Part shown: piece by piece, positions 49,824-57,725 of the stretch | How positions within the stretch are numbered: the stretch's first letter is position 1 | How the letters are laid out: every line of letters starts with the position of its first letter | Assembly: GCA_902517275.1 (NCBI GenBank) | Contig: CABYBQ010000005.1 | Span: forward strand, 1 to 57,725 | Reading direction: 5' to 3' | Source of the DNA: an uncultured SAR116 cluster alpha proteobacterium | GTDB lineage: Bacteria > Pseudomonadota > Alphaproteobacteria > Puniceispirillales > Marisalimonadaceae | DNA length: 57,725 nucleotides | Notes under the pieces: generated by a model | The model's database searches: none | Seen by the model: the letters and a program-made list of their open reading frames with translations, nothing else | Told to the model about the DNA's origin: nothing | Program-made: the position numbers and the translations under genes

Positions 49824-50531
49824 TCAATCCTCTAATGCAACAGGTTCAAGATAGGAATAATAAAAATCAACCTTATCATCAAATCGCCTTGCTGTCTGTT
49901 GAGCTTCTTTTTCATTTGTTGCACAAAAACTCAAGCTCAATCTGTAATTATGCATCCTATAAAAAAATCTTAAAATGTCGATCTGACTATTCCCAACGTG
50001 CCATGACTTTAATATCCAACCAATAAAAAACAACCACGGGGAAATCATTAAAAGGAACCAATAAAAAACTAAAGAAATACATAAAAAAGTCCATAATCTA
50101 TTTTGTAACATCCATAATGGTGGGGCAAGACTTGCAAGAATTGTAGGAAAAGTATTTAGAAGAATAGCTGTTTTTTGGGGTTTTTTATAAACTTCAAATT
50201 GAAAATAAAATTCGTCTTGATTAAAATAGTCATTAGGATCTAATTTTTTTAAATCAGGTATTGTATCAGAATTGACACTTTCACATATAACGCCTAAAGA
50301 ACCATAAACAAAAGTATTAAAAAAAACTCCATCTCTATACAAAGTAAGAATTTTTTTGTCTTCGATTTCATTCAATTCTTTTGTTAAATCATCATAACTT
50401 TTATTAACTATTAATCCATCAAGAGCTATTATAATATCCCCTTCAGCTAACTTCATAACAAATGCATTGGAAGAAGTTCTTATAGCCTTAATTTGTAAAA
50501 AGTTTTTTTCAGTTTCAATTTCTTCATTCAT
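49824..50531 (-). CDS. Hypothetical membrane protein with N-terminal PDZ-like domain
   Basis: I do not recognise this 235-residue protein. Residues 10-75 look like part of a PDZ domain: FVMKLAEGDIIIALDGLIVN carries the 'GDxIlaldG' core and ILTLYRDGVFF the closing strand. Residues 121-175 are hydrophobic, with one or two membrane helices (PPLWMLQNRLW and FLCISLVFYWFLLMISPWLFFIGWIL), a layout resembling DUF2628-type proteins. The tail (NYRLSLSFCATNEKEAQQTARRFDDKVDFYYSYLEP) is polar. It is the last gene of the minus-strand run that begins with the flagellar genes, 33 bases after the coiled-coil gene, and may be co-transcribed with them. Confidence 0.65.
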   Translation of the reverse strand: MNEEIETEKNFLQIKAIRTSSNAFVMKLAEGDIIIALDGLIVNKSYDDLTKELNEIEDKKILTLYRDGVFFNTFVYGSLGVICESVNSDTIPDLKKLDPNDYFNQDEFYFQFEVYKKPQKTAILLNTFPTILASLAPPLWMLQNRLWTFLCISLVFYWFLLMISPWLFFIGWILKSWHVGNSQIDILRFFYRMHNYRLSLSFCATNEKEAQQTARRFDDKVDFYYSYLEPVALED

Positions 50532-50564
50532 ATAATCAAACTCACAAAAACAAATTTTATAGTA

Positions 50565-51278
50565 TTATGGATATTTAATTCTACTAGTTTTATCTGCAAT
50601 CTTTCCTAAAACATTATTATTTTGCTTAACAAGTTTAGAAATTTGTTGAGCTTGTATAGCCTGATTAGCTACTATCTGTTTATATATGGCTTTGTTGCTT
50701 ATTTGCTGAATAGCTTTAGATATAGTTTTACTATTGGAACGATTAAGTTTTGCTAAGTCTGCACTTAGTTTTTTGTTGTTTTCAACACTAATTTTTGAAT
50801 TTTTACTCAATTCATTTATCAAGGTAGTTGTGATTAATTGTAGCTCACCAATAGTATTTTCATTAGATTTTTCGACACGCTTTTCAATTTTATCAAGATT
50901 AGCTACCATTTTTTCATTAACAGCTAACAAATCACCTTGTTTTTTTATAGCTTCATCAAGATTTTTTAATGATGCATTAACGCCATCTACATTTTCTGCA
51001 AAAACAACTAAAGCCTCTCTACTTGTTTCAGTCATATTAGTTAATTTGTCAGATGACTGCATAAATAAAAATGCACTTACAGTTATAACAACTAACCCTG
51101 AAATAATAGATGATAAAAAAACAACAGTAGTGTATTTATGAATTTGTTTCACTTTAGCCTCCAATAATGCGTGAGCTTTTTTAACTTTATTATATTCTGA
51201 GGTTACATCAGTAGCCGCATCAGCTGCATCTAAAGCTAATTTAATACTTTCTTGTACAGCTTCCATTTTAGTATCCAT
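50565..51278 (-). CDS. Hypothetical membrane-anchored coiled-coil protein
   Basis: The 237-residue product has no family I can name. A helical, charged N-terminal segment (residues 1-48) is followed by one membrane helix (residues 50-73, TVVFLSSIISGLVVITVSAF). Residues 75-225 are long, Lys/Asn/Gln/Ser-rich helices with heptad-like Leu, Ile and Val positions; this is compatible with a periplasmic coiled coil similar in shape to a chemoreceptor or to the stalk of a flagella-linked protein. There is no cysteine. Clean start with AGGA before the ATG. It lies downstream of the flhB gene group on the same strand. Confidence 0.7.
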   Translation of the reverse strand: MDTKMEAVQESIKLALDAADAATDVTSEYNKVKKAHALLEAKVKQIHKYTTVVFLSSIISGLVVITVSAFLFMQSSDKLTNMTETSREALVVFAENVDGVNASLKNLDEAIKKQGDLLAVNEKMVANLDKIEKRVEKSNENTIGELQLITTTLINELSKNSKISVENNKKLSADLAKLNRSNSKTISKAIQQISNKAIYKQIVANQAIQAQQISKLVKQNNNVLGKIADKTSRIKYP

Positions 51279-51322
51279 TATATAAATCCTATAAAACCAT
51301 TAAAATTGTCTAAACATGATAA

Positions 51323-51511
51323 TTATATATTCTTTTCTTTTCTATATGCACATTCTATACCAGTTGTACTAAAAACTTCAATCGCAGGAATAGATTTAGA
51401 AATAAAACCAAATTTCTTACAGCCCCATGGACGTTCCTTCTTATAAGTAATAAAGAAATAATAACACCCACTACATTTAACTATTTTCTTTTCATTTTTA
51501 TTGTTAATCAT
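51323..51511 (-). CDS. Small four-cysteine protein of flagellar neighbourhoods
   Basis: This 62-residue protein has Cys13, Cys16, Cys31 and Cys54 in KCSGCYYFFITYKKERPWGC then KKFGFISKSIPAIEV and GIECAYRK, a pattern that fits a small zinc-binding protein. Similar small proteins occur next to flagellar genes in other proteobacteria and are sometimes mislabelled uracil-DNA glycosylase. That comparison is from memory. It starts 5 bases after the previous gene, with no strong ribosome site, so it is probably coupled to it. Function is unknown. Confidence 0.7.
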   Translation of the reverse strand: MINNKNEKKIVKCSGCYYFFITYKKERPWGCKKFGFISKSIPAIEVFSTTGIECAYRKEKNI

Positions 51512-51516
51512 TAATT

Positions 51517-51747
51517 TTATTCTTTATTTTTATTTTTATTTATTAACTCAAGTAACCCATATATTAATTCAGCAATTTTAAATCTTAATGCTCCCATGAC
51601 CGCAGTAAAACCAAAAAACCAATATAATATTGCGTTTGATAAATCGCCCTCTTCTCTGAGCGAACTTGCTTCAAAATGGCATAAAAGTGCTGACCATAAA
51701 AACATTGCCGTAATAATTATCTGTCCAAAAGTTTTTCTTTTTTTCAC
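51517..51747 (-). CDS. Small membrane protein overlapping flhB
   Basis: This 76-residue protein starts at a GTG (GTGA) that overlaps the flhB stop by 4 bases, with GGAG placed properly in the last flhB codons; this supports translation coupled to flhB. It has two membrane helices (residues 7-27 and 40-60: IIITAMFLWSALLCHFEASS and NAILYWFFGFTAVMGALRF) and a charged Lys/Asn tail. No known family. The antisense frame across the region is not coding-like. Confidence 0.6.
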   Translation of the reverse strand: MKKRKTFGQIIITAMFLWSALLCHFEASSLREEGDLSNAILYWFFGFTAVMGALRFKIAELIYGLLELINKNKNKE

Positions 51748-52907
51748 TTTCTCTCCATATTTTCAGTTACTGTTTTACCATATTCGTCAAAACTCATATC
51801 ATCTGGTAATTCAAAATTAGGATAGTCAGATTCCTCACCTCTTTCAATTTTAAAGATATATGCTAAAACTGAAGCAACTGCTGAATATAAATTTTCTGAA
51901 ATTTCCTTGCCTATTTCCCCAGTAAAATAAAGGGCTCTAGCTAGTAAAGGACTTTGAAAAACAGTTACTTGATTTTCATTAGCCAATTTTATTATTTTTT
52001 CAGCCATCATTCCTCTACCCATTGCTAAAATTGTTGGTGCTCCAGTCTCACCTACATCATATTTTATGGCTACTGCAAAGTGTGTAGGATTAGTTATTAT
52101 TGCAGAAGCATCTTTAACATTGTCAAGAGCAGCTGATTGGGTTGCAGCTCTATTAGAAATTTCATTTTGTAATCTTCTTATTTTTTGTTTAACTTCTGGC
52201 GATCCGTCAGTATCTTTATGTTCGTCTTTAACTTCCTTGATTGTCATTTTTAATTTTTCTACATGTATGTATTTTTGCCAAATAAAGTCAAAAATAGCTA
52301 TGAAACCTAGAGCTATTAGTAAGGCAATTGTTAATTGAGGAAAATTATTAAGAAGGTTTGACAAAGCACTGTATAGGTTACGTTCTGACAAATTAATAAT
52401 ATCTTTAATGTTAACGTATATGACACCATAGGTGATTCCACCTAGCAACCCGACTTTAAATAAAGACTTAATTAATTCAACTAGGCCTTTTGATGAAAAT
52501 ATTCTTTTTAAACCCGATAAAAGATTAATTCTATTAGATTTGAAATGAAAACCCTTAGGAGCAAAGTTAATACCTCCTACAGCCATTTGGGTAAATAGAA
52601 TTGTAAGTATTAGAGGAATGCCTATGATTAAAGTTATATATATTACATATTTAATCAATTTCTCCATTCCTGAAATTGGAGATACGTTAATAATATAATT
52701 TAAGTCAAATAAGAAAAACATTTTCCAAAGACTTAAAAAGTCTCTAGCAAAAAAAGGTATTGATGTTAATACCATCAAGCCCATTATTAAAGTTGTAAAT
52801 ACGAACATTTCTTTTGAGGATAGTACTTGGCCGTCCTCAGCTGCTTTATCTAGTTTTCGTTGAGACGGTTCTTCGGTTTTATCTTGTGAATTATCTTCTT
52901 CAGCCAT
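51744..52907 (-). CDS. flhB: Flagellar biosynthesis protein FlhB
   Basis: FlhB is the substrate-specificity switch of the flagellar type III export gate. The N-terminal part has the EEPSQRKLDKAAEDGQV opening (residues 12-28) and four membrane helices; the cytoplasmic domain begins near residue 215. Autocleavage occurs at Asn273-Pro274 in ITNPTHFAVAIKYD, intact here. PLLARALYFTGEIGKEI follows. Length 387 is normal. It starts 1 base after fliR ends, and its 3' end overlaps the small membrane protein gene by 4 bases. Confidence 0.97.
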   Translation of the reverse strand: MAEEDNSQDKTEEPSQRKLDKAAEDGQVLSSKEMFVFTTLIMGLMVLTSIPFFARDFLSLWKMFFLFDLNYIINVSPISGMEKLIKYVIYITLIIGIPLILTILFTQMAVGGINFAPKGFHFKSNRINLLSGLKRIFSSKGLVELIKSLFKVGLLGGITYGVIYVNIKDIINLSERNLYSALSNLLNNFPQLTIALLIALGFIAIFDFIWQKYIHVEKLKMTIKEVKDEHKDTDGSPEVKQKIRRLQNEISNRAATQSAALDNVKDASAIITNPTHFAVAIKYDVGETGAPTILAMGRGMMAEKIIKLANENQVTVFQSPLLARALYFTGEIGKEISENLYSAVASVLAYIFKIERGEESDYPNFELPDDMSFDEYGKTVTENMERK

Positions 52908-53723
52908 TTATAAACTTCCATTATCAGATGATTGAAGTACTTCGTAAATCAAGTTTATAGCTGTTCCTGTTAAATCAGAAAATGCATCTGAAATAGGACC
53001 TACTCCTGCATACAAAAATATAAAGACACTTATTAGAGCTATTGGAAAACCAAAGGAAAAAAGGTTAAGAGAAGGAGCAGATCTCGTAATAATACCAATA
53101 GAACATTGTATTAATAATAATCCACCTACAACCGGTAAGCTAATAAGTGCTGCCAAATAAAGCATATTTCCAAAAGTATTAACGGCAATTTCACTTACTT
53201 GGGAAAAATTTAAAAATATACCAATTGGTAAATATGTATAACTTTCTAATAACATTTTGATTATAAACAAGTGTCCATCTAAGGATAAAAAGCACGAAAT
53301 TAAAAATAAAGTTAAAACGGTGCTTAGAACCAACGTTTGTCCGCCTGATTGTGGGTCAATCATACTAGACATTGAAAGTCCTGCAGTAGAAGCAATCTTT
53401 TCACCAGCAACAGCTGCGGCTGAAAATATAATATTTAAAATTAATCCTACAGATAAACCTATTCCTATTTCTGATAAAATTAGTATGAACAGGTTAAAAC
53501 CTAGCATATTTTGAATATCAGGTACTTTAATAACTGGAAATAAAAAGGCTGTAAGGCTAATGCTAGCAACAATTCTTACTTGCAATGGAATACCACCTAA
53601 GGAGAAAAATGGTGCACTTATTAAAAATGACGAAATACGTAATGATGCTACAAAAAAGATTACTAGATACTGGTATAAGTTGAATAAATTCACTCCAGGT
53701 AGACTTAATTCTGATCCATACAT
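52908..53723 (-). CDS. fliR: Flagellar biosynthesis protein FliR
   Basis: FliR is part of the export gate with FliP and FliQ. The 271-residue protein has six or more hydrophobic segments. RISSFLISAPFFSLGGIPLQVRIVASISLTAFLFPV (residues 32-67), the EIGIGLSVGLILNIIFSAAAVAGEKIASTAGLSMSSMIDPQSGG block near residue 85-128, and GIITRSAPSLNLFSFGFPIAL are typical of the family. It lies between fliQ (18 bases) and flhB. Confidence 0.96.
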   Translation of the reverse strand: MYGSELSLPGVNLFNLYQYLVIFFVASLRISSFLISAPFFSLGGIPLQVRIVASISLTAFLFPVIKVPDIQNMLGFNLFILILSEIGIGLSVGLILNIIFSAAAVAGEKIASTAGLSMSSMIDPQSGGQTLVLSTVLTLFLISCFLSLDGHLFIIKMLLESYTYLPIGIFLNFSQVSEIAVNTFGNMLYLAALISLPVVGGLLLIQCSIGIITRSAPSLNLFSFGFPIALISVFIFLYAGVGPISDAFSDLTGTAINLIYEVLQSSDNGSL

Positions 53724-53741: not shown

Positions 53742-54014
53742 TTAATTTTGTCCTACACCAGCAACTTGGTCAAAAATAAAGTTAAAGTAATCAACTAACC
53801 CCATCATAAAAAAATTACCTAACAACCCTATGCCTAACATTACAACTACAACTTTTGGAACAAAACTTAACGTCATTTCATTAATAGAAGTTGCAGCCTG
53901 AATAATTCCTATAAAAAGACCAATACCTAGAGCTAAAGCTAATATGGGACCTGATACCAGTAAAACTTGGTAAAAGGCCATACTTAACATACTAATATTT
54001 TCATCAAAATTCAT
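53742..54014 (-). CDS. fliQ: Flagellar biosynthesis protein FliQ
   Basis: This 90-residue protein has two membrane helices (residues 12-36 and 52-75), as usual for FliQ. LVSGPILALALGIGLFIGIIQAATSINEMTLSFVPKVVVV is the diagnostic core. The gene starts 3 bases after fliP ends. Confidence 0.96.
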   Translation of the reverse strand: MNFDENISMLSMAFYQVLLVSGPILALALGIGLFIGIIQAATSINEMTLSFVPKVVVVMLGIGLLGNFFMMGLVDYFNFIFDQVAGVGQN

Positions 54015-54017
54015 TTT

Positions 54018-54860
54018 TTATCCCGCAGCAAATGTACTTACTAAAGAACCAACCGTCATACTCCAACCGTCAACTAAGACAAATAGTAATAATTTAAAAG
54101 GAAGAGCAACTAACATTGGAGAAAGCATCATCATTCCAAGTGACATCAAAATAGAAGAAATGACCATATCAATTACAAGGAATGGCAAAAATAATAAAAA
54201 ACCTATTTGAAATGCAGTTTTAAGCTCACTCGTCATAAATGCTGGTAACGCAATTCGAAATGGGATATCTGATACTTCGTCAAATTTTTCTAGACCAGCT
54301 AATTCTGAAAACATAATTAAATCAGTCTTTCTGGTATTTTTGACCATGAAACGTTTCATTTCAGAACTAGCTGTTTCGAGGGCTTTTTCTGCTGGCAGAG
54401 TTTTATCCATATAAGGGACTGCTGCATTTTCATAAACTTTATTAAAAGTTGGTGCCATTATAAAAAATGTTAAAAACAGGGAAATTGCTATTAACACTTG
54501 ATTTGGTGGTGTCTGTTGAGTTCCCAAAGCTTGACGAAGTATGGACATTACAATTATAATTCTTGTAAAGCTGGTCATTCCTAATACTAGAGAAGGAAGA
54601 ACAGTTAAAGCTGTCATCAATAGCAAAATTTGTAAGGGGAAAGAATATTCCGTAGTATCCCCATTAGTTGATACATTCAATGCTGGGAAACCAGAAGATA
54701 TTGTCTCCCCAAAAGCTTGAACTGGTAGACCGCTAATTAAAAAAATAGTGACTAAAAAAGATACGATTTTACAAAAATTTTTGAATTTATTAATAATTTC
54801 TTCTCCCCTATTATAAAAATAAATTCTTTTAATTGGTTGAGGACAAATTGCTTTACGCAT
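54018..54860 (-). CDS. fliP: Flagellar biosynthesis protein FliP
   Basis: FliP forms the central pore of the export gate. The mature core begins SFPLQILLLMTALTVLPSLVLGMTSFTRIIIVMSILRQALGTQQTPPNQVLIAISLFLTFFIMAP and ends GMMMLSPMLVALPFKLLLFVLVDGW, with conserved FMTSELKTAFQIGFLLFLPFLVIDMVI between. From the ATG at 54860, which overlaps fliO by 8 bases, the N-terminus has an unusually long polar leader of about 27 residues before the signal peptide (FCKIVSFLVTIFLISGLPVQAFG). A strong AGGGGAG lies inside it at 54803-54809, before an ATT at 54797, so the real start may be later. Confidence 0.94.
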   Translation of the reverse strand: MRKAICPQPIKRIYFYNRGEEIINKFKNFCKIVSFLVTIFLISGLPVQAFGETISSGFPALNVSTNGDTTEYSFPLQILLLMTALTVLPSLVLGMTSFTRIIIVMSILRQALGTQQTPPNQVLIAISLFLTFFIMAPTFNKVYENAAVPYMDKTLPAEKALETASSEMKRFMVKNTRKTDLIMFSELAGLEKFDEVSDIPFRIALPAFMTSELKTAFQIGFLLFLPFLVIDMVISSILMSLGMMMLSPMLVALPFKLLLFVLVDGWSMTVGSLVSTFAAG

Positions 54861-55284
54861 CTCTACCACCTTTTTTATGAGCAGTTAATAAATCAGATAT
54901 ATTTACGTGTTGTAGAGGTTTTGACTCATTGATTTTTTCCGGAAGTGAAGTTTTATTATGAACAATATTTTTTGATAATAATTTATCAATTTTTTTGTTT
55001 TTGGTATTTTCTTCGTTTAATATGTTAGTATTTATTTGAGTTAAAGAACCTCTTCCAGACTTATGCCCAACAAAGAAAAAGTTTTCTTCTCCAACCTTAA
55101 GAACATATGCCAAATAACCATTCCTGAGTGATAATTGATTTAACACTTCAAGATTATTTTGATTTTTAATTATTTTTTTTAAGGGACCACTTTTTTTCTT
55201 TATAACAAACGCTATAATACCTAGGGTTAATAAAAATAAAATAGTAACTATTGCAGTTGTAAAGTCTGGAACTGTTTGCGACAT
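54853..55284 (-). CDS. fliO: Flagellar biosynthesis protein FliO
   Basis: This 143-residue protein has one membrane helix (residues 10-28, AIVTILFLLTLGIIAFVI) and a cytoplasmic domain, as in FliO, which stabilises FliP during assembly of the export gate. LEVLNQLSLRNGYLAYVLKVGEENFFFVGHKSGR is a FliO-type block (usually '...LDPRrrLvlVRvgdrelLlgv...'). The sequence is weakly conserved and the call leans on its position between fliN and fliP. AAAGGAAAG precedes the ATG. A sigma-54 motif lies 32 bases upstream. Confidence 0.88.
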   Translation of the reverse strand: MSQTVPDFTTAIVTILFLLTLGIIAFVIKKKSGPLKKIIKNQNNLEVLNQLSLRNGYLAYVLKVGEENFFFVGHKSGRGSLTQINTNILNEENTKNKKIDKLLSKNIVHNKTSLPEKINESKPLQHVNISDLLTAHKKGGRDA

Positions 55285-55400: not shown

Positions 55401-55715
55401 TTAAAGTTTTTGCACTCGATTTTCAGGATTAGTTACTTCTGTAAATCTTATACCAAACCTTTCTCCAACCATAACAACTTCCCCTTTAGCAATTTTAACA
55501 CCGTTAGCTAATATATCTAAAGGATCACCTGCTAGTCTCTCTAATTCAACCACAGAACCTTCATTTAGTCTTAAGAGATCTCTAATTTTCAGTTCTGTAG
55601 AACCGACTTCTACTGTGAGTTTGACCTCAATATTTTCTAAAACCTTAAGATTATCTATCCCAGCACCCTCTAAAGAGGTTTCTTCGTTTGTTGGTGCTGT
55701 TTCATTTTCTGCCAT
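55401..55715 (-). CDS. fliN: Flagellar motor switch protein FliN
   Basis: FliN forms part of the C-ring that binds phospho-CheY and sets rotation direction. Of 104 residues, the first 25 are acidic and flexible; the SpoA domain covers residues 28-104: LENIEVKLTVEVGSTELKIRDLLRLNEGSVVELERLAGDPLDILANGVKIAKGEVVMVGERFGIRFTEV is a textbook match. It follows fliM by 19 bases and precedes the 116-base gap before fliO. Confidence 0.98.
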   Translation of the reverse strand: MAENETAPTNEETSLEGAGIDNLKVLENIEVKLTVEVGSTELKIRDLLRLNEGSVVELERLAGDPLDILANGVKIAKGEVVMVGERFGIRFTEVTNPENRVQKL

Positions 55716-55734: not shown

Positions 55735-56703
55735 TTATAATCTGTTTTTCAAACTAACTGCAACTTGACCGTTTGTTTCTCCAATTTCAGCCTTAAATAA
55801 TAACTTTTCATTTACAAAAAAATCAACCCCATCAACTGGAGGAAGGTTAATGACATCTCCTTCTTTATATTTGACTAAATTTGATAAAGATACTGAAGGT
55901 TCACTTAAGATAGCTGATACAGGAAGAGGTACATTTAACACTGATTTTTCTAATCGCTCTCTCCAACTAGTATCATCATCAATAACATCAGACTGAACTC
56001 TTGAACGTAATAGTGATGCAATTGGCTTCAATGTTTGCAAAGGATATATTATGTCAAATGAAGCAGAGTCAATATTAGGTAATTGTACAACAAAAGAGCA
56101 AATAATAACTGAATCGGTTGATTCAACTAGAGTAGCAAACTGAGGATTTATTTCCCTGGCTTGGTGCCTGATTGTAATGGGCATAAGATCTTTCCAAGCT
56201 GCTTGTAAACATTGCCCCATCCCGTCTGAAACTATTTCAATTATTCTGTCTTCAGTAGCTGTAAACTCAGCTTTTGTAGTTGGAAAATTTGCTAATTTTC
56301 CACCATAATAACAATTTGTTAAAACACTAATAAAAGAGGGTTCAAGAACAAGCAACATTGAACCTCTTAACTCGTCTATCCTGCTAGTAGTTAAACTCAT
56401 AAAACTGTTGAGGCCAGCACTATATTCATCATAAGTTTTAACTTCAGGAGGAAATGGATTAATCTTAGGTTGCATTCTGATCATTGGCAAAAAAATACTT
56501 CTTACTAATCTTGCAAATCTTTCATTTATTAGTCTTAAGGCATAATAATCTCCAAGAAGTTCTAGATTGTCTGATCCAAATGTAAATTCTGTAACCTCAA
56601 CCTCGTTATTGATACCTGAATTTGCTGTTATTTCACCAGATTGGAGACCCTCCATCAATGCAGAAACTTCATCAGATGATAATTTTCGAGATGTATTTGA
56701 CAT
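55735..56703 (-). CDS. fliM: Flagellar motor switch protein FliM
   Basis: FliM links FliG and FliN in the switch complex. The N-terminal KLSSDEVSALMEGL (residues 7-20) is the phospho-CheY binding helix. The middle domain (residues 45-230) has RLINERFARLVRSIFLPMIRMQPKI and SFISVLTNCYYGGKL, and the C-terminal SpoA-type domain (residues 250-322) ends FKAEIGETNGQVAVSLKNRL. The 322-residue length is normal. It lies 17 bases after fliL. Confidence 0.97.
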   Translation of the reverse strand: MSNTSRKLSSDEVSALMEGLQSGEITANSGINNEVEVTEFTFGSDNLELLGDYYALRLINERFARLVRSIFLPMIRMQPKINPFPPEVKTYDEYSAGLNSFMSLTTSRIDELRGSMLLVLEPSFISVLTNCYYGGKLANFPTTKAEFTATEDRIIEIVSDGMGQCLQAAWKDLMPITIRHQAREINPQFATLVESTDSVIICSFVVQLPNIDSASFDIIYPLQTLKPIASLLRSRVQSDVIDDDTSWRERLEKSVLNVPLPVSAILSEPSVSLSNLVKYKEGDVINLPPVDGVDFFVNEKLLFKAEIGETNGQVAVSLKNRL

Positions 56704-56720
56704 AATTCTACAACCTTTTT

Positions 56721-57323
56721 TTATTGTAATATGAAAGCAGTAAAATACACATCTTCTATACCAGGAAACTCATTAAGTGTTTCTAACTTCTTGTTGAGAA
56801 CAACCATTAGCCTTTCTGAAAGTTTTTTCTTTCCGTCACTTCCAGAAATATCTTCTTCTGTAAAATCACTTATAGTCGACAATATTTCTGAACGAAGTGC
56901 TAACTGGTGAGAGTCTACAACTTCCATGACCTTTTCATCATATTGAGTAGAAACTCCTACACTAACTTGTAAAAACTTTCTACTACCCTTTAAATTTGTT
57001 GTAAAATCTCCAGGAAATTCAAAATATGTTGTTTCATAACTATCAACTTCTGGTATTGCTTTGACATTCTTCTTTATAATTCCATCTTCCCCAACTTCTT
57101 CACCTTCTTCGTTATTTTCACTTTTTTCTTTTTCTTTTTTTTCAGTTTCTTTACCTTCAATGATTTGATTTACTTCTGCAGAAGGATCCGGCTCTGGCTC
57201 ACCACCAAAAATCAAGTAACCAATACCTAGCCCAACTACTATCAGTAGTAGACCTGCAACTACAAAAATAATTATTTTTAATAAATTACTCTTTTTTGGT
57301 TCTTCTTCAACTTCTTCTGCCAT
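56721..57323 (-). CDS. fliL: Flagellar basal body-associated protein FliL
   Basis: FliL supports stator engagement and motor torque. It has a short cytoplasmic N-terminus, one membrane helix (residues 14-39, LLKIIIFVVAGLLLIVVGLGIGYLIFG) and a periplasmic domain. Between them sits an unusually acidic, repetitive linker of Glu and Lys (around residues 50-80). The periplasmic domain has YFEFPGDFTTNLKGSRKFLQVSVGVSTQYDEKVMEVVDSHQLALRSEILSTISDFTEEDI, the family core. It lies between fliK and fliM. Confidence 0.95.
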   Translation of the reverse strand: MAEEVEEEPKKSNLLKIIIFVVAGLLLIVVGLGIGYLIFGGEPEPDPSAEVNQIIEGKETEKKEKEKSENNEEGEEVGEDGIIKKNVKAIPEVDSYETTYFEFPGDFTTNLKGSRKFLQVSVGVSTQYDEKVMEVVDSHQLALRSEILSTISDFTEEDISGSDGKKKLSERLMVVLNKKLETLNEFPGIEDVYFTAFILQ

Positions 57324-57350: not shown

Positions 57351-57725
57351 TTATGCAATCACGTTTATCATATGTCTAGATGAATTGTTTTTAGCTATGA
57401 TATCACTTTCATCTTCACTATTTTTTATATTAATGTCAGATTGTGTAGAATTTTTTTTATCATTATTTTGTGAATTTTGGTTCGAATTATTTCTAGAATC
57501 AAATTTTTTACCCTCACTTTGTGCTGAAAAGTCTAAATTTATACCCTGCTCGTTAAAAAGTTTTTGAAGGTAATTTTCATTCTGATTTAAAGCACTGGTA
57601 ACAAAACTATTTTCAGTAACAATTTTAACATTACCAACGCCATTTTTAAATTTAACTGATACCTTTAACAAACCAAGGTTTTTAGGTTTGAGATTAAATT
57701 CGATTTCCTCTCCGCCATTTTGAAT
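57351..57725 (-). CDS. fliK: Flagellar hook-length control protein FliK, C-terminal part (gene runs off the window)
   Basis: The frame is open to the right edge, so only the last 124 residues are visible; the TTG at 57671 is an internal codon. IEFNLKPKNLGLLKVSVKFKNGVGNVKIVTENSFVTSALNQNENYLQKLFNEQGINLDFSAQSE matches the FliK C-terminal (Flg_hook) domain, whose pattern is 'L.P..LG.v.v......' then a helix-rich end that contacts FlhB. The tail after it is an Asn/Ser/Asp/Lys-rich disordered stretch. Adjacent fliL supports the call. Confidence 0.85.
   Translation of the reverse strand: MQNGGEEIEFNLKPKNLGLLKVSVKFKNGVGNVKIVTENSFVTSALNQNENYLQKLFNEQGINLDFSAQSEGKKFDSRNNSNQNSQNNDKKNSTQSDINIKNSEDESDIIAKNNSSRHMINVIA

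Follow-up and report, generated by a model that had tools for sequence, protein, structure and literature searches.

Four conserved genes downstream of flhB as a candidate accessory module of a flagellum type in SAR116 bacteria

We analyzed a stretch of 57,725 nucleotides (hereafter the window) from an uncultured alphaproteobacterium of the SAR116 cluster (contig CABYBQ010000005.1), in which four genes, here called A, B, C and D, follow the flagellar export gene flhB. SAR116 is an abundant marine bacterial group. The four genes share their genomes with FlhB, keep one order behind flhB across the SAR116 order and beyond it, and diverge along with the flagellar proteins, which strongly indicates a dedicated accessory module tied to this type of flhB and flagellum. 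The module is an unrecognized accessory set on a known machine. Our overall reading, to which we give a probability of about one half, is that A to D form an accessory module dedicated to one flagellum type that has been transferred horizontally, that their products would act at the inner-membrane part of the motor, and that C would play a role resembling that of MotF, a rotation protein of Rhodobacter (Cereibacter) sphaeroides.

Co-occurrence with FlhB and gene order in the SAR116 order

Among 136 genomes of the order, FlhB (PF01312) was found in 96 (95 of them above the cut-off), C and D in 96 each, and A and B in 95 each. The FlhB-positive and C-positive sets are the same 96 genomes (n = 136, lists compared by eye). 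Relative to this set, A and B are missing solely from genome G113, while D is missing solely from G046 and adds solely G067. If the count is restricted to genomes with a completeness of 90% or more and a contamination of 5% or less, FlhB, A, B and C are each present in 29 of 43 and D in 30, G067 being the extra one. All three mismatched genomes have a contig end at the site. The FlhB of G113 is a below-cut-off fragment on one contig and its C begins at base 5 of another; the G046 contig (7448 bases, the source of locus L009) stops 53 bases past C. G067, which has D only, could be read as a genome with D and no flagellum. We rejected this because its D contig carries motA and motB (Pfam) and stops inside the 5' part of D, so that the mismatch is best taken as a contig break with the flhB side unassembled.

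The gene order is equally stable. Iterated profiles run over 66 loci (L001 to L066, L001 being the window's own copy) recovered C in all 66, A, B and FlhB in 65 each and D in 64, the losses arising from cut stretches (L031 starts inside C, L009 ends just past C and L044 ends inside C). More distant loci, 20 from 19 genomes in other families of the order, have FliR-FlhB-A-B-C-D in every case (20/20). Close spacing is a repeated feature of these loci: with start codons chosen by a fixed rule, flhB and A overlap in 17 of 27 loci, A and B in 20 of 26, B and C in 11 of 26, and C and D in none of 26.

In the window itself the four open reading frames lie where the original prediction had placed them, on the same minus strand as the flagellar genes. 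The predicted spacings of -4 (flhB/A), 5 (A/B) and 33 (C/D) nucleotides agree with the coordinates, whereas the B/C gap is 44 and not 53. The flhB/A junction reads GGAGAGAAAGTGA: the GTG start of A overlaps the TGA stop of flhB with GGAGA close upstream, which gives A the built-in ribosome site that had been proposed for it. Small frames of this kind could arise by chance. Purifying selection acts on each of the four genes: the ratio of nonsynonymous to synonymous change (pN/pS) against three relatives (L007, L010, L028) spans 0.11-0.32 in A, 0.14-0.34 in B, 0.07-0.15 in C and 0.15-0.30 in D. These low values, together with the recurrence of A to D across the order, argue that the frames are not chance occurrences. 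The closest C proteins, at up to 100% identity, come from SAR116 records. A scan for sigma-70 promoters, one promoter type, gave 19 promoter-like sites against 19.6 expected in shuffled sequences and is silent on whether the genes share a single transcript. The host assembly comprises 1.21 Mb at 53% completeness.

The idea of one functional unit linked to flagella, put forward from the DNA of the window, is thus supported by the co-occurrence with FlhB and by the shared gene order across the order. Relatives keep the four genes next to flhB within the SAR116 order, outside it and on a Roseobacteraceae plasmid; a set scattered, or unlinked to flagellar genes, was looked for in relatives and not seen. 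These results also bear on the notion that A to D are unrelated membrane genes which a stable operon has kept as passengers. Such a group might well include a gene such as B, which has relatives outside any flagellar context, or one such as D, which carries common domains. However, the set keeps its gene order in four families of the SAR116 order, in three further families of the class and on a plasmid, and among the 40 genomes of the order without an FlhB match only G067, its contig carrying motA and motB and ending inside D, keeps any of them. No complete relative that had lost A to D while still swimming was seen. We therefore regard mere passengers as very improbable.

Two genomes of the order show unusual arrangements. 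In one (G017:C23:10891-13946) the flhB frame is broken by internal stops and the match to D is split in two, whereas the frames of A, B and C look open; this is either an assembly error or early decay. Another, listed as 3% contaminated, contains two complete flhB-A-B-C-D sets of different divergence (G129:C36 and G129:C100, loci L066 and L048), which may stem from two strains or species.

Spread of the module and its divergence with FlhB

Outside the order the module is rare. Across 385 genomes of the class, the C profile matched 11, one of which (G365, E 2.3e-4, in a 494-amino-acid frame) was set aside as a weak chance match to a coiled coil; B was found in the same 10. The D profile matched in 55 class genomes, strongly in 10 (8.3e-39 or better) and weakly in 45. 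Most of the weak matches cover the PDZ part, in frames of about 300 to 700 amino acids, and a few (G405, G254, G375) the membrane part. Six genomes from outside the order (families f12, f22 and f108) all have FlhB-A-B-C, and in five of them D follows; the sixth locus breaks off within C. FlhB, in some cases solely a C-terminal piece, was detected in 50 of 81 class genomes, which are part of the 385 as far as their handles show. Just two of the 81 (G000 and G143) are among the ten module holders; most flagellated alphaproteobacteria sampled thus lack the module.

A plasmid of the Roseobacteraceae member Octadecabacter arcticus 238, pOA238_118, carries the set after flhB, with matches of 1e-19 for A, 4e-21 for B, 1e-22 for C and 4e-36 for D, and has rpoN and motAB nearby. 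In the PLSDB gene table of this plasmid, which is incomplete, C and D are hypothetical and A and B have no entry. Searches of plasmids with the Octadecabacter C and D proteins returned no second copy, and one Sulfitobacter plasmid flhB locus (28% FlhB identity) has none of A to D among the annotated genes after flhB. A survey of the Rhodobacterales distinguishes three types of flagellar cluster, fla1, fla2 and fla3, of which fla2 and fla3 are horizontally spread and in some cases lie on plasmids (Tomasch et al., PMC11974857). The Octadecabacter plasmid cluster with A to D belongs to the same mobile sort as fla2 and fla3. Unlike these, its cluster type is not named there, Octadecabacter occurring 0 times in the main text, and the passages of the survey used here do not describe the A to D genes (PMC11974857).

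We then placed the module on a quick tree of 52 FlhB/SctU rows, in which the cassette side is made up of 18 loci and the window. These 19 cassette holders occupy one side of one branch (support 100), and 23 of the 27 other alphaproteobacterial rows form a separate clade (support 99), with gammaproteobacterial and betaproteobacterial references also apart. Of the remaining rows, L195 groups with Pseudomonas, and L196, L198 and L199 also lie outside this clade; long branches occur in three non-cassette rows. Mirror-tree correlations with FlhB over 18 taxa (L141, cut inside C, was left out) are r = 0.64 for A, 0.84 for B, 0.84 for C and 0.85 for D, compared with 0.85 for FliP, 0.85 for FliR, 0.90 for FliM and 0.83 for FliL; 0 of 1000 permutations reached the observed r. 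Since the distances of A to D track FlhB as those of FliP and FliR do, and since the holders share one FlhB clade, the module travels and evolves with this flagellum.

Such co-divergence would also fit A to D as accessories of the export gate, helping to assemble or gate the FliPQR-FlhB-FlhA apparatus and not the stator, with A coupled to FlhB and the PDZ domain of D binding a C-terminal tail. The module follows flhB, A is a small membrane protein whose gene often overlaps flhB, and B, C and D co-diverge with FlhB about as strongly as FliP and FliR. However, the place after flhB says little when taken alone, because a Pseudomonas record shows the same fliN-O-P-Q-R-flhB order followed by genes that carry the annotation YgcG family and not that of export genes. 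It is also hard to see what a long periplasmic helix such as that of C would do at a cytoplasmic gate, and the layout of C matches that of a known rotation protein, MotF. We consider export accessories an unlikely alternative to a role in the motor.

The four proteins and their surroundings in the window

The coordinates of the module and of the flagellar genes upstream of it are collected in Table 1. Against TIGR00328 the FlhB of the window scores 2.4e-102 and 342.7 bits, slightly below the cut-off of 349.25. On the other side of the module, the stops of D and of a converging SDR-type gene are 2 nucleotides apart (49821/49824).

Table 1. The A to D genes and the adjoining flagellar genes in the window
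Feature	Position	Strand	Description
gene A	51517-51747	minus	76 amino acids, membrane protein, basic N-terminus; GTG start overlapping flhB stop by 4 nucleotides
gene B	51323-51511	minus	62 amino acids, soluble; Cys 13, 16, 31, 54 (CxxC-x14-C-x22-C)
gene C	50565-51278	minus	237 amino acids, bitopic, one transmembrane segment 52-70, long helical part, ends [KST][YF]P
gene D	49824-50531	minus	235 amino acids, PDZ ~9-87, DUF2628-like helical hairpin ~147-193, short C-terminal tail
flhB	51744-52907	minus	flagellar export switch protein, directly upstream of A; PF01312 4e-101
fliR	52908-53723	minus	Pfam
fliQ	53742-54014	minus	Pfam
fliP	54018-54869	minus	Pfam
fliO-like	54853-55284	minus	without Pfam match; named from position alone
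fliN	55401-55715	minus	Pfam
fliM	55735-56703	minus	Pfam
fliL	56721-57323	minus	Pfam
fliK C-terminal end	57351-57725	minus	Pfam

None of the four window proteins scores above the curated cut-off in Pfam or NCBIfam, PHROGs gave nothing below E 0.1, and for proteins of other genomes (five B relatives; four from the A, C and D families) NCBIfam likewise gave nothing above cut-off. Alignments of each family (A1 to A4) were built from 8 of 45 loci and 20 further loci after proteins containing X had been dropped (A of L061; B, C and D of L042; C of L066). In the 28 sequences of the A alignment (A1), hydropathy predicts one to three segments in 26 rows and a single segment in the window protein. A family relation between A and the gene with two transmembrane segments beside motA (u5) is poorly supported (hhalign probability 12%).

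The B alignment is marked by its four cysteines, which are invariant in 28 of 28 rows, and no row has a hydrophobic segment (0/28). Comparison with PDB profiles returned nothing credible (best E 0.86). B belongs to a widespread small four-cysteine family that matched no Pfam or NCBIfam model here; it is present in 34 of 62 non-alphaproteobacterial genomes in a sample of the phylum that is heavy in a few families. We read 33 of these 34 places, up to 8 kb on each side (L162 to L194; G528 was left out). A Rieske ([2Fe-2S]) gene lies just upstream of the B relative in 10 of the 33, and SUF-type genes are near in some. A flagellar-specific B family was accordingly rejected, as these 34 genomes carry it and none of the 33 places matches the flagellar genes searched for. 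A FliG_C match in a recurrent neighbor of B relatives (5 loci) reached 16.7 bits against a cut-off of 23.3 and was not counted, and the annotation of a Rossellomorea B relative as uracil-DNA glycosylase was distrusted for a protein of 71 amino acids.

Protein D consists of a PDZ domain and a DUF2628-like membrane hairpin. PDZ_6 (PF17820) matches 22 of 28 members of the alignment at E up to 1 (best 1.8e-5), whereas a Pfam search with only the window protein gives no PDZ family at E up to 1; against PDB profiles, D matched PDZ chains. A structural model of D (predicted local distance difference test, pLDDT, 86) superposes on the PDZ domain of GRASP55 over residues 8-93 (Z 9.8, root-mean-square deviation 3.1 Å, 86 aligned residues) and on PDZ2 of RseP (Z 9.0, 1.8 Å, 76 aligned), so that its N-terminus, as modeled, has a PDZ fold. 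At the same threshold of E up to 1, DUF2628 (PF10947) is matched by 19 of 28 members, the best with 4.9e-4. To our knowledge, no flagellar protein described so far combines these two domains. The absence of an evident signal peptide and a basic tail in several relatives suggest that the PDZ domain faces the cytoplasm.

With C spanning the periplasm and D as a scaffold, the module could instead mark or anchor the flagellated pole or set flagellar number. A PDZ scaffold combined with a periplasmic coiled coil would suit a landmark, and the best structural matches of the D model are PDZ domains of the GRASP membrane-tethering proteins, a resemblance of fold only. However, the RseP domain matches D almost as well, and no peptidoglycan-binding or cell-pole domain for A to D appears among the matches listed (in one table, the best 25 of 90 families). 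We consider a role in placement or envelope anchoring improbable, though less so than mere passage.

Every row of the C alignment (27/27) has a single hydrophobic segment. The net charge is +4 to +5 before this segment and -1 to +2 after it, a bias that predicts a cytoplasmic N-terminus and a periplasmic location for the long helical part that follows. The motif LDAADAA at positions 16-22, in a conserved helix before the membrane segment, is invariant, and the C-terminal [KST][YF]P is found in 27 of 27. The AlphaFold model is a nearly continuous helix (pLDDT 83; predicted template modeling score, pTM, 0.27). PDB profiles matched only coiled coils (best 3.8e-5, a designed protein), which we took as chance, and a match to the RcGTA tape-measure protein (E 0.011) was likewise taken as a coiled-coil chance match.

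A possible motor role and comparison with MotF

The flagellum type to which the module belongs has the layout fliKLMNOPQR-flhB-A-B-C-D, with motB-motA and rpoN beyond D in many lineages. In the 35 loci read past D, motA follows in 20, with motB and often rpoN (MotB was named by Pfam in L065 and L137 and by an annotated record, RpoN by Pfam). Five stretches stop at or before D (L048, L061, L063, L064, L141) and L032 stops in motB. Other genes lie beyond D in nine loci (L049, L050, L057, L058, L142, L002, L007, L010, L030); in the last four they are SDR-purF-cvpA-radA, as in the window.

Three further genes recur in this neighborhood in relatives. The first encodes a diverged homolog of ribosome recycling factor (PF01765, above cut-off) and lies beside D in several of them (21 locus entries, some duplicates of one genome), as at L040:9534-10241 (minus, E 7.7e-8) and L138:6471-7067 (minus, E 6.3e-12), in L138 after D on the same strand; it was not found in the window and is probably a paralog of frr. 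The second, likewise not found in the window, encodes a small membrane protein with an N-terminal CxxC and a weak, below-cut-off DsbB-like match near motAB (L137:663-911, L065:663-977, L215:7109-7369 on the minus strand, and 22 other loci). It directly follows D on the Octadecabacter plasmid and may be a fifth member of the set. The third is an Lcl_C-domain gene near motA (PF07603; L138:2985-3482, minus, 4.7e-22; 19 other genes).

The passages available from the literature describe MotF of the R. sphaeroides Fla1 flagellum as a 24 kDa protein with a transmembrane segment at 54-74 and a large periplasmic part, which is recruited via the H-ring protein FlgT and is needed for rotation, or stator activation, its loss being suppressed by plug mutations in MotB (PMC7277832). 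Like this protein, C falls in the same size class, with its membrane segment at 52-70 against 54-74 and a large C-terminal part predicted to be periplasmic. The gene RSP_0067 is one that we take to be motF of R. sphaeroides. The locus tags of that organism run from fliK (0058) to flhB (RSP_0066), and RSP_0067 then follows as a hypothetical gene of the motility cluster (PMC9779115); by its tag it probably stands next to flhB, compared with the third place after flhB for C.

The MotF-like layout of C and the presence of motAB beyond D in 20 of 35 loci favor a role in the motor. Given its MotF-like layout and closely similar position, C would most likely act at the stator, if the analogy holds, with D as a cytoplasmic adaptor. 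The conserved cytoplasmic helix of C might dock on the motor base, while its periplasmic coiled coil, with the [KST][YF]P end, would reach the stator or the periplasmic rings; C could then help to seat or unplug the stator, as published for R. sphaeroides MotF. D would sit on the cytoplasmic face of the membrane as a PDZ adaptor and hold C or a motor or export protein. A would be a small membrane partner whose translation is coupled to that of FlhB, and B a soluble four-cysteine factor that probably binds metal.

Several observations weigh against this motor-accessory reading. All 33 stretches around B relatives are without a match to FliL, FliM, FliN, FliO, FliP, FliQ, FliR or FlhB (window queries, phmmer E 1e-5), and B may do something general, since its relatives sit by Rieske, SUF and other genes. 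A tracks FlhB least well (r = 0.64). C/D gaps range from 2 to 195 nucleotides without overlap in the 26 loci, which suggests that D is less tightly coupled. In the genus of the window, SDR-purF-cvpA-radA takes the place beside D that motAB occupy elsewhere; L049, L050, L057, L058 and L142 also lack motAB at this place, and neighbors that are transferred together need not touch the motor. The pTM of the C model is low. The comparison with MotF sets C beside the description of that protein and not its sequence, and layout and position are weak evidence for the link because bitopic coiled-coil proteins are common; MotF has moreover been described, in the passages cited, as occurring mainly in the Rhodobacteraceae (PMC7277832).

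The SAR116 flagellum carries four conserved proteins for which no assigned role was found, and searches of the open-licence PMC literature turned up no account of A to D. The module is a genome marker of a horizontally transferred flagellar type. If C is related to MotF, two lineages that share this part could be compared to test how a motor switches its stators on. A bolder proposal, which we offer tentatively and doubt on balance, is that A to D are the signature parts of a distinct, mobile, SAR116-centered motor type of which Rhodobacter MotF is the one member noticed before; the coiled coil of C, the PDZ scaffold of D, the FlhB-coupled A and the four-cysteine B would then make up an added stator-gating complex absent from the textbook flagellum.

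The name MotF has also been given to a protein of Sinorhizobium and Agrobacterium that is a paralog of FliL (Sobe et al. 2022, as cited in the passages used of PMC9812332). Unlike this FliL-type MotF of the Rhizobiaceae, C is predicted to be all helical (model pTM 0.27) and fliL is here a separate gene. A Pfam search at E up to 1 gave no FliL match for the C protein of the window, and the C alignment has none among the best 25 of 90 families. Like the Sinorhizobium and Agrobacterium protein, a motor accessory needed for swimming, C is proposed to be an accessory of the motor.

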